57,166 nucleotides of DNA from assembly GCA_002280875.1 (NCBI GenBank), contig NCEV01000004.1, forward strand, positions 1-57,166, in the 5' to 3' direction. Below, in pieces: positions 3,123-57,166 of this stretch; within the stretch, counting starts at the first letter, position 1; each line of letters starts with the position of its first letter. The notes below the pieces were generated by a model, which was not told the DNA's origin, ran no database searches, and saw only the letters and a program-made list of their open reading frames with translations. The DNA is from Caulobacter sp. 32-67-35. Lineage in GTDB: Bacteria; Pseudomonadota; Alphaproteobacteria; Caulobacterales; Caulobacteraceae. The translations under genes were made by a program, and so were the position numbers.

Positions 3123-4295
3123 TTAGGCGGCGACCCGTTCGGCGCAGACGGTCTCGAACGCCCAGTCGAGCCAGGGCGTCAGGGCTTCCAGATCCGAAGC
3201 CTCGACCGTGGCGCCGCACCAGATGCGCAGGCCCGCCGGGGCGTCGCGATAGCCGCCGATGTCGAGGGCCGCGCCCTCCTTCTCAAGCAGGCTGGCCAGC
3301 TTCTTGGCGAAGTCGGCCTGGGCGTCGTCGGGCAGGGCGACGATCGCAGGATCGACGACCTTGAGGCACACCGAGGTGTTGGACCGGATGTCCGGCGTGG
3401 CGGCCAGGAAATCGACCCACGGGGTCTTGGCCACCCAGTCGGCGATGACCGCCAGGTTCTGGTCGGCGCGGGCCTGCATGCCTTCCAGACCGCCGATGGA
3501 CGAAGCCCACTTCAGGGCGTCGAGCGCGTCTTCCACGCAGAGCATCGACGGGGTGTTGATCGTGGCGCCCTCGAAGATGTCGAGGGAAACCTTGCCGCCC
3601 TTGGTCATACGGAAGAGCTTGGGCATCGGCCAGGCCGGCGTGTAGCTCTCAAGGCGCGCCACGGCGCGGGGCGACAGGATCAGCACGCCGTGCGCGCCCT
3701 CGCCGCCGAGCGCCTTCTGCCAGGAGAAGGTGACGACATCGAGCTTCGTCCAGTCCAGGTCCTGGGCGAAGGCGGCGCTGGTGGCGTCGCAGATGGTGAT
3801 GCCTTCACGGTCGGCCGAGATGAAGTCGGCGTTCGGGACGCGGACGCCCGAGGTGGTGCCGTTCCAGGTGAAGACCAGGTCCTTGGCCGGATCGACCCTG
3901 GACGTGTCGGGCAGTTGGCCGTATGGCGCGTCGAGCACTTCGACATTGGGCAGCTTCAACTGCTTGGTCACGTCGGTGACCCAGTCCTTGCCGAACGATT
4001 CGAAGGCCATCAGTTGCACGGGCTTGGCGCCCAGCATCGACCACATGGCCATTTCGACGGCGCCGGTGTCGGAGCCGGGAACGATGCCGATCAGGAAGTC
4101 GGCCGGCACTTCCAGCACTTCGCGCGTCTGGTCGATAGCGGCCTTGAGGCGCGCCTTGCCCAGCTTGGAGCGGTGCGAACGACCCAGCACGGCGTTTGTG
4201 AGATTTTCGGGGGTCCAGCCGGGCCTTTTGGCGCACGGGCCGGAAGAGAACTCGGGACGAGCCGGGCGTTGCGCCGGCTTGGCGAGGGTAGTCAT
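3123..4295 (-). CDS. serC: Phosphoserine aminotransferase
   Basis: Converts 3-phosphohydroxypyruvate and glutamate to phosphoserine and 2-oxoglutarate using PLP, the step after SerA; SerC also acts in the pyridoxal phosphate route of many proteobacteria. The 390-aa protein has the alphaproteobacterial SerC start '[18 protein letters not shown]', the PLP lysine in '[11 protein letters not shown]' (~K194) and 'GTTSG' substrate-loop residues (~146-150). The ATG at 4295 is preceded by GGGAG at good spacing; longer in-frame versions have no ribosome site. It heads the serC-serA unit, and its leader carries hairpins that overlap the ribosome site. Confidence 0.95.
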
Positions 4296-10973: not shown

Positions 10974-11052
10974 TACATCCCCACAGAGGGAGAGGATCCA
11001 ATAAGGCGGCGCGGAGACGCAACGTGACGGAGGGGCGTCTGGCGGTTGCCGG
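10971..11052 (-). repeat. Dispersed intergenic repeat, copy B (inverted)
   Basis: Read on the minus strand, this copy gives CCGGCAACCG, then GACGCCCCTCCGTCACGT, GCGTCTCCGCGCCGCC, GGATCC, a CCTCTCCC...GTGGGG hairpin and an AT-rich end, matching copy A (10161-10240) nearly base for base in its core. It starts right after the COQ9 gene stop. The two copies face each other and enclose the transposase scar. Confidence 0.6.
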
Positions 11053-17101: not shown

Positions 17102-18244
17102 TTAGGCGGTCTTCAGAGACGGGTGGACGATTTCGCCCCCCTGGGTGACCAGGGCGGCCTTCAGGATCTCATCCTCGAAGTCGGGGGCGAAAGCGCCTTC
17201 CTTGTTGAGGAACAGACCCGACAGCGCAAAGAGGTTGCGGGCATAGAGCGCGCTAGCGTCGGTAGCGATGCGGCCCGGCAGGTTGGCCGCGCCCAGGATT
17301 TTGACGCCATTGGCCGTGACCACGGTCTCGTTCAGCTTGGCGCCGACCACATTGCCGCCCTGCTCTATGGCCAGGTCGACCAGGATCGAACCCGGACGCA
17401 TCGAGGCTACCTGCTCGGCGCTGACCAGCTTGGGCGCCGGCCGGCCGGGGATCAGGGCCGTGGTGATGACGATGTCCTGCTTGGCGATGTGCGCGGAGAC
17501 CAGCTCTGCCTGCTTGGCCTTGTATTCCTTCGACATTTCCTTGGCATAGCCGCCGGCCGTCTGGGCGTTCTTGAACTCGTCGTCCTCGACGGCCAGGAAC
17601 TTGGCGCCCAGCGACTCGACCTGTTCCTTCGTGGCCGGCCGCACGTCAGTGGCGGTGACCACCGCGCCCAGGCGGCGGGCCGTGGCGATCGCCTGCAGGC
17701 CGGCGACGCCGACGCCCATGATGAACACCTTGGCTGCGGCGATGGTGCCGGCGGCGGTCATCATCATCGGCAGGGCCTTGCCGTAGGCCTCTGCGCCCTC
17801 GATCACGGCGCGGTAGCCGGCGAGGTTGGCTTGGCTGGACAGCATGTCCATCACCTGGGCCCGCGTGATACGCGGGATGAACTCCATGGCGATAGCGCTG
17901 GCGCCGGCCTTGGCCAGGGCGGTCAGCGTGTCCTTGTCCTGATGCGGATTAAGGGCGGCGGCGACGATGGCGCCGCTCTTGAGGGCGGCGATCTCGGAGG
18001 CTTCCGGGGCGCGCACCTTGAACAGGATATCGGCGCCGGTGATCGCGTCTTTCGCAGTCTTGGCAAGCTTGGCGCCGGCCGCCTCATAGTCGGCGTCGGG
18101 GTAGGAGGCGGCGCTGCCCGCGCCGGCCTCGACCACCACAGAGAAGCCGGCGGCGGTCAGTTTTTTCACCGTTTCCGGCGTGGCGGCGACCCGCGTTTCA
18201 CCCCCGCGGGTTTCTTTCGTCACGGCGACGACGGCCATCGGCAT
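17102..18244 (-). CDS. pntAa: NAD(P) transhydrogenase subunit alpha part 1 (NAD-binding)
   Basis: The soluble NAD(H)-binding domain I. The 380-aa protein shows '[15 protein letters not shown]' at the start, '[30 protein letters not shown]' (nucleotide fold with GVGVAG), the mobile-loop region 'GGYAKEMS' and '[14 protein letters not shown]'. Two ATGs are possible: 18244 and 18238. GGGAGG is 4 nt before the first and about 10 nt before the second, so the start is uncertain by two codons. It is the first gene of the pnt operon. Confidence 0.95.
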
Positions 18245-18362
18245 ACCCCTCCCAGAGCGCTGCTATCCCAGTCAGCTTGCGCTGCTGTTTAGGGGATAGT
18301 CTTGCCTCTTGTCGAGGCGTTACGTGCGCGTCAGGGAGAAATTATGCCGATGTCTACCGGTG

Positions 18363-25490: not shown

Positions 25491-26094
25491 GATCACAGGG
25501 ATATGGCCCCTGCGGGGTGGGGCGCAACGGCGCATGGCCGTTGGGGGCGACATTCCAGGGTTCATGGCCTCGCGCTTTTGCTGCGATGGGGATGGGAAGG
25601 GGCGCGGAGCGTCCGGGCCTCGCCCGGATAGGAGTGTTTTTAAGTACCGTTTCGACGAAGACAGACGCCTCGCGTGATCGTTATCCCTCTGGCCGGGGCG
25701 CGCAGGTCTGGTTCAACCTTTTGCCCCACCCGGGCTTGTTCCTCCTCGCGACGGACCCAGCCCCTAAAGCTGCAAGCCACGCCGATTCCGGAGGACCCGG
25801 AGCGAACCTTCGGACGGGCGGAGGCCTTGGCTGGCCCCCGATAGGCGGGTTTACGTCCCCTGTCCTCTCTTTAAGCCGGCCGCCCGGGCCTTGGCCCGAA
25901 CGGTGGCCCCGCTCGATCACCCCTGACAGCCGTCGCTGGTCGCCGGCCGGCCGCCCTTCCCGTGTTGTCAGGTGAGATTGAGTATGCGGGCGGTTTCAGC
26001 GCCGAGGATTGGCGCGATCAAGTTTTTTCAAGCGGTTGATCGGGCTGCGGTTTGTTCTGGAAAAAACGGGGGATTGAGCGCAGCGTATCCTCAT

Positions 26095-26122
26095 AAGTCC
26101 TCCCCCTTCAGGGAGAGGACTT
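26095..26122. repeat. Short palindrome
   Basis: AAGTCCTC (26095-26102) and GAGGACTT (26115-26122) pair perfectly, and inner CCC/GGG bases extend the stem. It lies 40 nt from the large inverted repeat. No T-run follows, so a terminator role is doubtful. Confidence 0.5.
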
Positions 26123-26161
26123 GGTAGCGCGCGCCCCGCCCCTCTTCGCGCCGAAGCGAGC

Positions 26162-26310
26162 CATCCTTAAATCTCACGGCGAGACGATCGCTGGTCTGGA
26201 AAGGTCACTCAAGGACGACGCTCCGCGTCGCCGCGACGCGGCCGCCGGAGGCGGTCCTTGACTGACCTTTCCAGACCAGCACGCTGCAGCCTCCAGGAGA
26301 TTTAAGGATG
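26162..26310. repeat. Large imperfect palindrome (MITE-like), about 149 bp
   Basis: The outer arms CATCCTTAAATCTC (26162-26175) and GAGATTTAAGGATG (26297-26310) are perfect inverted repeats. The inner 27-nt arms at 26190-26216 and 26254-26280 pair at all but one position. The central loop itself folds: CGCGTCG/CGACGCG and CTCCG/CGGAG are complementary. Possible short direct repeats (AGCGAG, AGCGGG) flank the element. Such architecture suits a MITE, a long RNA hairpin or a strong transcription barrier downstream of the kinase gene at 26388. Confidence 0.75.
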
Positions 26311-51457: not shown

Positions 51458-52384
51458 CTAGATCGGCCGCCCGGTGATCTTCCACAGCAGCGGCCGGCAG
51501 ACCGACATCAGCATGATGGCCGGGGCCAGGAACACGGCCAGGGCGTAGCGCTGCAGGGTGTCGGCGCGCTTGATGAAGTAGCGGGACAGGCCCACGCCCT
51601 TGTGGAACTCGACCTTCACCGGGTGTTCCAGGCTGGTATGTCCCAGATGCACGACCTGGGCCTTGGGCTGGAAGATCACCTGGCCGCCGGCCTGGCGGGC
51701 GCGCCAGCACAGGTCGATGTCCTCGACGTGCAGGAAATAGCCCTCGTCGAAACCGTCCAGCGCCTCGAAATCGGCCCGGCGCAGGGCGAAACAGGCGCCC
51801 GAGATGGTCGGCATGGGAACCGGCGCGCGCGGCAGGGGTTCGGTTTCGCGATGAATCTCATAACCCGCCAGTCCGGCATAGCGACGGGTCAGGTGACCAA
51901 AGCTGAGCAGCGTCGTGATCGGCGTCACCTCGCCGCGACGACCGCCACGCTGCTCGGTGCCGTCGGTGTTCATGACCCGCGCGCCGACCACGGTCGGGGT
52001 CGGCTGGCCGCGGAAGGCCGTGACCAGCGCCGCGATACAGCCAGGCTGCAGGTTGGCGTCGGGATTGATGAAGATGATGTATTGGCCCTTGGCCGTCGTG
52101 GCGCCCAGATTGGCGCCGCGCGCGAAACCGACATTGCCATGGCCCTGCTGGAGCACGACACGCGGCTCGGTCAGGCCCAGGGCCCGCAGCATCTCGGCGT
52201 CGCGCGGGGGCGAGCCATTGTCGACGATGACAAACTCGTCAACCAGGGGCTCGTCCAGCACGTGCCGGATGCTTTCAAGCAGCGCCCCCCCCGTTCGGTA
52301 CACGACCATCACCACCGAAATGTTCGGCCGGGCCGGGCGAGCGCCAGCCGCAAGGGTCGTGAAGGACGGGAGGATGCTGTTCAT
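51458..52384 (-). CDS. Glycosyltransferase family 2 protein, 308 aa
   Basis: Inverting GT-A enzyme of the rhamnosyltransferase/WbbL type: 'NISVVMVVYRTGGALLESI', 'VIVDNGSPPRD', 'GNVGFARGANLGATTAKGQYIIFINPDANLQPG' (DxD-like NPD), 'GACFALRRADFEALDGFDEGYFLHVEDIDLCWRARQAGGQV' with the catalytic ED. It probably acts in surface polysaccharide synthesis. A hydrophobic patch near the C-terminus may attach it to the membrane. Its ATG overlaps the thrS stop by one base (TGATG). Confidence 0.9.
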   Translation of the reverse strand: MNSILPSFTTLAAGARPARPNISVVMVVYRTGGALLESIRHVLDEPLVDEFVIVDNGSPPRDAEMLRALGLTEPRVVLQQGHGNVGFARGANLGATTAKGQYIIFINPDANLQPGCIAALVTAFRGQPTPTVVGARVMNTDGTEQRGGRRGEVTPITTLLSFGHLTRRYAGLAGYEIHRETEPLPRAPVPMPTISGACFALRRADFEALDGFDEGYFLHVEDIDLCWRARQAGGQVIFQPKAQVVHLGHTSLEHPVKVEFHKGVGLSRYFIKRADTLQRYALAVFLAPAIMLMSVCRPLLWKITGRPI

Positions 52385-54274
52385 CAGGCGAGCGCCGCCT
52401 CCTGCACAGGCTTGGCAATACCCCGGGCGCGGGCCAGGTCCGGCGGCGTGGCTTCATTGGTCAGGACGCGCACGGCCTCGTCGAGCGACAGGATGTTCTG
52501 CCCCTCTCCGCCCAAGCGACGCAGGGCCACCTGCCCCGTCTCTGCTTCCTTGCGCCCCACCACCGCGATCACCGGAACCTTTGCGAGACTGTGCTCGCGA
52601 ATCTTGTAGTTGATCTTCTCATTACGCAGATCGACCTCCGCGCGCATCCCCAAAGACGTCAATCTCTCGACGACCTGACGAGCATAATCGTCGGCGTCGG
52701 AGGTGATTGTCGCCACAACAACCTGCGTCGGCGCCAGCCAAAGTGGCAGGTTGCCGGCGAAGTTCTCCAGCAGAATACCAATAAACCGTTCGAACGACCC
52801 CAATATCGCCCTGTGAAGCATCACCGGGCGCTTTTTTGAACCGTCCTCCGAAACGTACTCGGCGTCCAGTCGTTCCGGCAAGACAAAGTCAAGCTGCAGG
52901 GTTCCGCACTGCCAGACGCGGCCGATCGCGTCCTTCAGGGAGAACTCCAGCTTGGGGCCGTAGAAGGCCCCTTCGCCCTCCTGCAGCACCAGCGTCTCGC
53001 CCGCTGCCTCGGCCGCCGCCGACAAGGCCGCTTCCGCCTTGTCCCACACCGCGTCATCACCCGCACGCAACTCGGGACGCGTGGAGAACTTGGTGTCGGC
53101 CAGAGTCATGCCGAGGTCGCTGTAGACGCTGCGCAGGAGCTCGATGAACCGGGCGCTTTCCTCGGTAACCTGCTCTTCGCGGCAGAAGATATGGCCATCG
53201 TCCTGGGTGAAGGCCCGCACCCGCATGATGCCGTGCATGGCGCCCGAGGGCTCATAGCGGTGGCAGGCGCCGAACTCGGCCATGCGCAGCGGCAGTTCGC
53301 GATAGGACCGCTGGCCGACATTGAAGATCTGGATGTGCCCGGGGCAGTTCATCGGCTTGACGGCCAGAACCTCGCCCTCGGCGCTTTCGCACATGAACAT
53401 GGCGTGGCCGAACTTCTCGGCGTGGCCCGACTTTTCCCACAGGCTCTTGTCGAGGATCTGCGGCGTCTTGACCTCAACATAGCCGACGGCGTCCAGGCGA
53501 CGACGCATATAGTCCTCAAGCGCCCGGTACAGCGTCCAGCCCTTGGGGTGCCAGAAGACCATGCCCTTGCCCTCTTCCTGGATGTGGAAGAGGTCCATCG
53601 TGGATCCGCTGCAACTGGGCGTTGTTCTGGTCGCCGCGCCAGTAGGCTCCGGCCAGCTTCGTCAGCTTGAAGGCCTTGCCCACCGCCTTGGTCGAGGGAA
53701 GGTGCGGCCCGCGGCACAGGTCCTTCCACTTTTCGCCCTGGTGATAGACCGTGATGGTGTCGCTGGCCGGCAGATCGCGGATGATCTGGGCCTTGTAGCT
53801 TTCGCCCAGGGCCTCGAAGTCGGCGATGGCGGCGTCGCGGTCGACCTCTTCGCGGCGGATCTTCTCGTCGCGATCGACGATCTGGCGCATGCGCTCTTCG
53901 ATCCTGGGCAGATCGTCCAGGCTGAACGGCTCGTCGCGGGCGAAGTCGTAATAGAAGCCGTCCTCGACATTGGGACCGATGGTCACCTGGGTGCCGGGGA
54001 ACAACTCCTGCACGGCCTCGGCCAGCACGTGGGCGGTATCGTGGCGGATAACCTCCAGGGCGTCGGGCGACTCGCGCGTGATGATCTCGATCCTGCGCTC
54101 GCCGGTCAGCAGGTCGGGCGTCAGCGGGCGATCAAGGTCGAGCAGCACGCCGTCCAGCTTGATCAGCAGCGCCTTCTTTTCCAGCGACTTGGAAATGGCG
54201 GCCGCCACGTCGCGCCCGCTGGAGCCCGCGGGATATTGACGGGACGAACCGTCAGGAAAAACCAGATCGATCAT
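52384..54274 (-). pseudogene. thrS: Threonyl-tRNA synthetase with internal deletion and frameshift
   Basis: The gene reads in two frames. 53516-54274 encodes the TGS domain and editing domain (HDTAH near residue 78 and CRGPH), up to '[16 protein letters not shown]'. 52384-53598, in another frame, begins exactly at 'MDLFHIQEE' and carries the catalytic and anticodon-binding domains with Zn ligands in 'KPMNCPGH', 'TQDDGHIF' and 'VMLHRAIL'. Family sequences have about 32 residues between the two parts (the YGTAW...RDHRK helix); here 4 nt remain, a net loss near 92 nt. The second frame starts with ATG and resembles the active N-terminally truncated E. coli enzyme. yidD overlaps the 5' end (ATGA). 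Confidence 0.9.

Positions 54275-56281: not shown

Positions 56282-57166
<885 letters not shown>

Follow-up and report, generated by a model that had tools for sequence, protein, structure and literature searches.

The two-frame thrS gene of a draft bacterial genome is almost certainly a product of assembly error

The window analyzed in this study (57,166 nt, contig C41) carries the threonyl-tRNA synthetase gene thrS in two overlapping reading frames and, about 3.2 kb away on the same contig, an incomplete cysS (Table 1). From the labels of nearby relatives, we infer that the genome belongs to the genus Caulobacter. The domains of a bacterial full-length ThrRS (thrS, TIGR00418), namely TGS, SAD, class II core, and anticodon-binding, were all found in this order, spread over the two frames; one open frame through the linker is absent from the assembly as written. 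The editing half retains the motifs RHDTAH and CRGPH, and the catalytic half retains NCPGH. In the editing frame, the family sequence ends with AQLQRI, and four bases (CACG, from 53602) lie between its last codon and the ATG of the catalytic frame. The two frames overlap by about 80 nt with an offset of one base. The net loss of 92 nt equals 30.7 codons, and the four bases stand in place of 32 codons in the relatives. The junction is located in the inter-domain linker, which is the one place in thrS where a split would be tolerable. These findings on the minus strand confirmed a preliminary description of the locus, in which thrS lacked about 32 codons and switched frame at the linker between the editing and catalytic domains, with four bases left between the two parts.

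Table 1. Coordinates of the thrS and cysS features and of the contig-end overlap in the window.
Feature	Position	Strand	Remarks
thrS, editing-half frame (TGS and SAD domains)	53516..54274	minus	ATG at 54274, stop ends at 53516, 252 aa; native sequence ends with codon 53605-53603 and is followed by an out-of-frame tail (53602-53516)
thrS, catalytic-half frame (class II core and anticodon-binding domains)	52384..53598	minus	ATG at 53598, stop ends at 52384, 404 aa
thrS junction, 92 nt missing relative to relatives	53602..53603	minus	DNA comparison with relatives
cysS, incomplete at contig end, broken by 160-nt loss	56285..57166	minus	N-terminal part on contig C9
cysS junction, 160 nt missing (HHENE to KMSKS region)	56823..56824	minus	DNA comparison with relatives
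Last 99 nt of contig C41, identical to first 99 nt of contig C9	57068..57166		Contig-end comparison

Alignment to the intact thrS of relatives had been proposed as a check, and it placed the missing 92 nt in the present gene. For sizing the junction, 30 relatives' loci were taken, 20 of which were matched by DNA on both sides; the net loss was 92 nt at 18 of these and 93 nt at the other 2. The same 92-nt difference was obtained when the gene was aligned with the MAG contig L041. Of the relatives found, L041 is the nearest, with a DNA identity to thrS of about 92% and 87% on the two sides of the junction. A full-length thrS in a single frame was present in 58 of the 61 genomes. The exceptions were the present genome, G052, in which thrS is divided between two contig ends, and G025 (89% complete), in which no thrS was found. 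The linker motif RDHR lies in the catalytic frame at 74 of 80 relatives' loci; five of the other six were unmatched by the RDHR motif used, and one begins after the linker. No relative with a shortened thrS linker was found in the 61-genome set or among the 80 loci.

One reading in the preliminary description was a real split synthetase. On this reading, the overlapping frames would yield a free editing protein that cooperates with a catalytic protein lacking the editing function. The position of the break in the linker, the retention of the RHDTAH, CRGPH, and NCPGH motifs, and the match of the halves to separately solved fragments are consistent with this reading. Residues 4-225 of the editing half align with 1tje, a 224-aa ThrRS fragment, and Met1 of the catalytic frame corresponds to residue 10 of 1evk (401-aa truncated E. 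coli ThrRS) and residue 251 of full-length 1qf6. The catalytic frame does have an ATG of its own, as had been noted, and the further proposal that it starts where the truncated E. coli enzyme starts is nearly right, since the start lies nine residues inside the 1evk construct. 1evk and 1tje, which we take to be laboratory constructs from E. coli, cover nearly the same residue ranges as the two ORFs here, but those pieces were expressed from an intact gene.

Naturally separate proteins also exist. Archaeal free-standing ThrRS-ed proteins, and the conserved editing motifs HxxxH and DxCRGPH, are described in the available part of PMC4787780. As a split thrS would, the archaeal system places editing and aminoacylation on separate polypeptides; however, it uses separate genes, whereas here a single loss, in one draft assembly, interrupts one bacterial thrS. 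Yeast mitochondrial ThrRS without an editing domain, as presented in the available part of PMC4267643, indicates that a catalytic ThrRS can exist without that domain, but it has a gene of its own, whereas the catalytic frame here is the part of a bacterial gene that lies downstream of a frame break. A two-frame arrangement common to related genomes, as a split synthetase might show, was not observed: it occurs in none of the other 60 genomes, of which 58 have a full-length gene, one has the gene cut by contig ends, and one gave no match.

The neighboring cysS was then compared with its relatives. Both cysS and thrS are essential genes, and the KMSKS motif is required for catalysis. The reading frame of cysS changes across the junction, and HHENE and KMSKS both lie inside the lost part. 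The figure of 160 nt was the same against G001, G003, and G033, with the G033 value worked out from match coordinates. Three pieces of cysS were matched in the assembly, two of them on C41 and the third at the beginning of C9; beyond these pieces and a weak match of 24.7 bits in a 1032-aa frame on C138, no other cysS was found in the assembly. According to the available part of PMC8762117, archaea and some bacteria can form Cys-tRNA by way of SepRS. One SepRS match was found in the assembly, and its score of 20.9 bits was below the cut-off of 380.65. Because cysS lacks HHENE and KMSKS, no other cysS was found, and no SepRS match was above the cut-off, the genome as printed could not charge tRNA-Cys and would not be viable. 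As would mark an artefact, the loss hits a life-critical gene, cysS, for which no second copy was found in the assembly. The like loss in this adjoining gene also argues against a split synthetase, since cysS would be unworkable as two pieces without KMSKS.

We investigated whether losses of this class occur elsewhere in the assembly. A strict test was used, in which a single reference protein has to match the same strand twice, in different frames and without overlap, with each match reaching at least 70% identity; this test passes over stop codons. In the window, it identified thrS and cysS only, against each of G003 (35 genes), G033 (32 genes), and G001 (16 genes). Dedicated DNA searches covered the part of the window beyond position 11000. 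In the sampled stretches outside the window, three further blunt out-of-frame losses were found on C30: 110 nt at about 7964 (L135 about 7964) in a hydantoinase/oxoprolinase gene, 131 nt at about 124482 (L186 about 4482) in a dicarboxylate symporter gene, and 62 nt at about 146710 (L187 about 6710) in an FtsQ-type gene, the families being those of their G003 references. No loss among the five is divisible by three, which the strict test requires.

The same class of loss was thus present elsewhere in the assembly and absent in relatives, as expected of an artefact: it affected 5 of 108 distinct genes here, compared with 0 of 155 genes in the stretches taken from G001, G005, and G033 (p = 0.011). 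Without thrS, which was chosen because it is broken, the counts were 4/107 and 0/155 (p = 0.027); these p-values are modest. The 108 compared genes are a sample, of which 41 lie in the window, and most sampled stretches matched few or no reference genes and contribute little. Among the seven splits in the distinct-gene listing for this genome, five were counted, an N-run on C45 was kept apart, and a case on C5 is of a different kind. This count supersedes the summed counts, in which a gene could appear twice (5/114 vs 0/156, p = 0.013). A loose test against G003 flagged 11 of 44 rows, and the 9 besides thrS and cysS were judged, partly by comparison with G033 and not row by row, to come from shadow ORFs or from a longer start on the relative's side. 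In-frame stops in stretches of C51 and C86, also loosely flagged, were left out of the lesion count.

Since the same kind of loss is found in other genes, including the essential cysS, the broken thrS frame in the assembly is almost certainly attributable to assembly error. From sequence comparison, we consider with high confidence that thrS would be an ordinary full-length gene in the organism and that the 92-nt loss was made by assembly. Of the three readings offered in the preliminary description, the assembly error was supported by the cysS and C30 losses, and the second-copy lesion and the split synthetase were not. The recurrence of this class of loss in the assembly speaks against a real split synthetase, which leaves unexplained the same-kind losses in cysS and three other sampled genes; two cooperating ThrRS proteins are very improbable. 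If thrS were truly split at the linker, the cysS and other losses would have to be unrelated assembly errors, a combination to which we give hardly any credence.

A natural lesion accompanied by a second thrS copy had also been suggested. The genome search for a second thrS that had been proposed was run over the 163 contigs, and none was found; other matches to the thrS model scored at most 66.5 bits against a cut-off of 383.65. The missing thrS stretch has no good match elsewhere in the assembly: with the L041 linker as the query, only the two thrS halves matched above chance level (best other E = 0.011). The natural lesion with a second copy is not borne out in this assembly. A related possibility is that thrS, and cysS with it, was disrupted in the sequenced cells by a genuine deletion of recent origin, and that intact copies of both lie in the unassembled part of the genome. 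The estimated completeness of the assembly is 96.31%, so something is missing. However, two essential genes would then each need an intact copy that stayed hidden; searches of the assembly found no such copy, and a search for a near plasmid relative gave no near match. Near-identical second copies should probably have caused breaks in the assembly graph at both junctions. The three C30 losses and a mis-sized N-run would also be left unexplained, and we regard the recent deletion as very unlikely.

The selective constraint on the two halves was examined using dN/dS. Against L041, the values were about 0.13 for the editing half and about 0.12 for the catalytic half. Between L041 and L035, they were about 0.12 and 0.07, respectively, and other pairs were higher. 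The low dN/dS of the two halves is as compatible with a very recent event, the recent deletion included, as with an artefact, and does not discriminate between them. Decay of the thrS halves was rejected, as dN/dS is low in both, and an old lesion is disfavored because decay should have left one half freer. No short direct repeats flanking a deletion were seen by eye at the thrS and cysS junctions in L041 and G003. Hairpins in the lost segments had energies near those of shuffled sequences (z -0.75 and -0.55, simple base shuffles).

Programmed frameshifting could in principle join the two frames into a shortened ThrRS without about 31 linker residues. The frames overlap with the offset of one that this would use, and the RNA near the junction contains a stem that is somewhat more stable than expected from shuffled sequences (z -2.37; equally good folding in 4 of 200 shuffles). 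However, this stem is located in conserved coding sequence, which is also present in relatives that show no change of frame, and the shortened linker that frameshifting would produce has no counterpart among the relatives searched. All the objections to the other alternatives apply here too, and frameshifting is extremely improbable.

For the assembly error, a mechanism can be proposed from contig ends and N-runs. The 99-nt identity between the ends of C41 and C9 perhaps reflects a de Bruijn graph built with k = 99, as seen in one contig pair where few pairs were comparable. Another contig end has 79 nt in common with an inner stretch of C86. On C45, an N-run at 3750-3782 (L169:3750-3782) comprises 33 N, whereas the corresponding stretch of the relative is about 139 nt long, so that 106 nt are lacking; this is the one N-run that was sized, and although N in this data set also marks masked stretches, masking would not shorten the gene. 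A 37-N run was observed at L132:15110-15146. The two short N-runs in the sampled stretches look like scaffold gaps. The six deficits (five losses and the N-run) have a mean of 110 nt and a median of 108 nt. A de Bruijn assembly, perhaps with k = 99 and with k presumably playing a part, may have left small gaps within genes. The lengths of these gaps would have been underestimated by about 100 nt, and gaps with an estimate of zero or below would have been closed blunt, without N. The outcome would be clean losses of 60-160 nt irrespective of reading frame. The spread of 62-160 nt does not fit a single constant gap error, which cannot explain all the losses.

According to the available part of PMC11017572, many putative pseudogenes in public genomes stem from assembly error. 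In those cases, as here, conserved genes look broken through assembly, and assembler, platform, and coverage count; however, they involve short indels and internal stops, whereas the losses here are of 62-160 nt, like mis-sized gaps closed blunt. As biology, the thrS case is ordinary, and the gene is most likely normal. This 96%-complete draft seems to hold several silent, N-free losses of 60-160 nt in conserved genes. Such losses mimic split enzymes or pseudogenes, and a quick discriminator is to look for the same lesion in neighboring essential genes.

Other differences from relatives were also observed. The C5 case (L165 about 17940-18322) consists of about 380 extra nt in a conserved gene compared with G003, in the same frame on both sides. 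Within the window, the stretch at about 25589-26310 apparently belongs to a short-repeat family, with numerous relatives of about 70-95% identity scattered through G003 and G033. Window positions 11059-57166 map in four blocks to four separate places in G003, at about 646-661 kb, 398-415 kb, 4.00 Mb, and 563-574 kb; either a chimeric contig or a rearrangement within the lineage may account for this.
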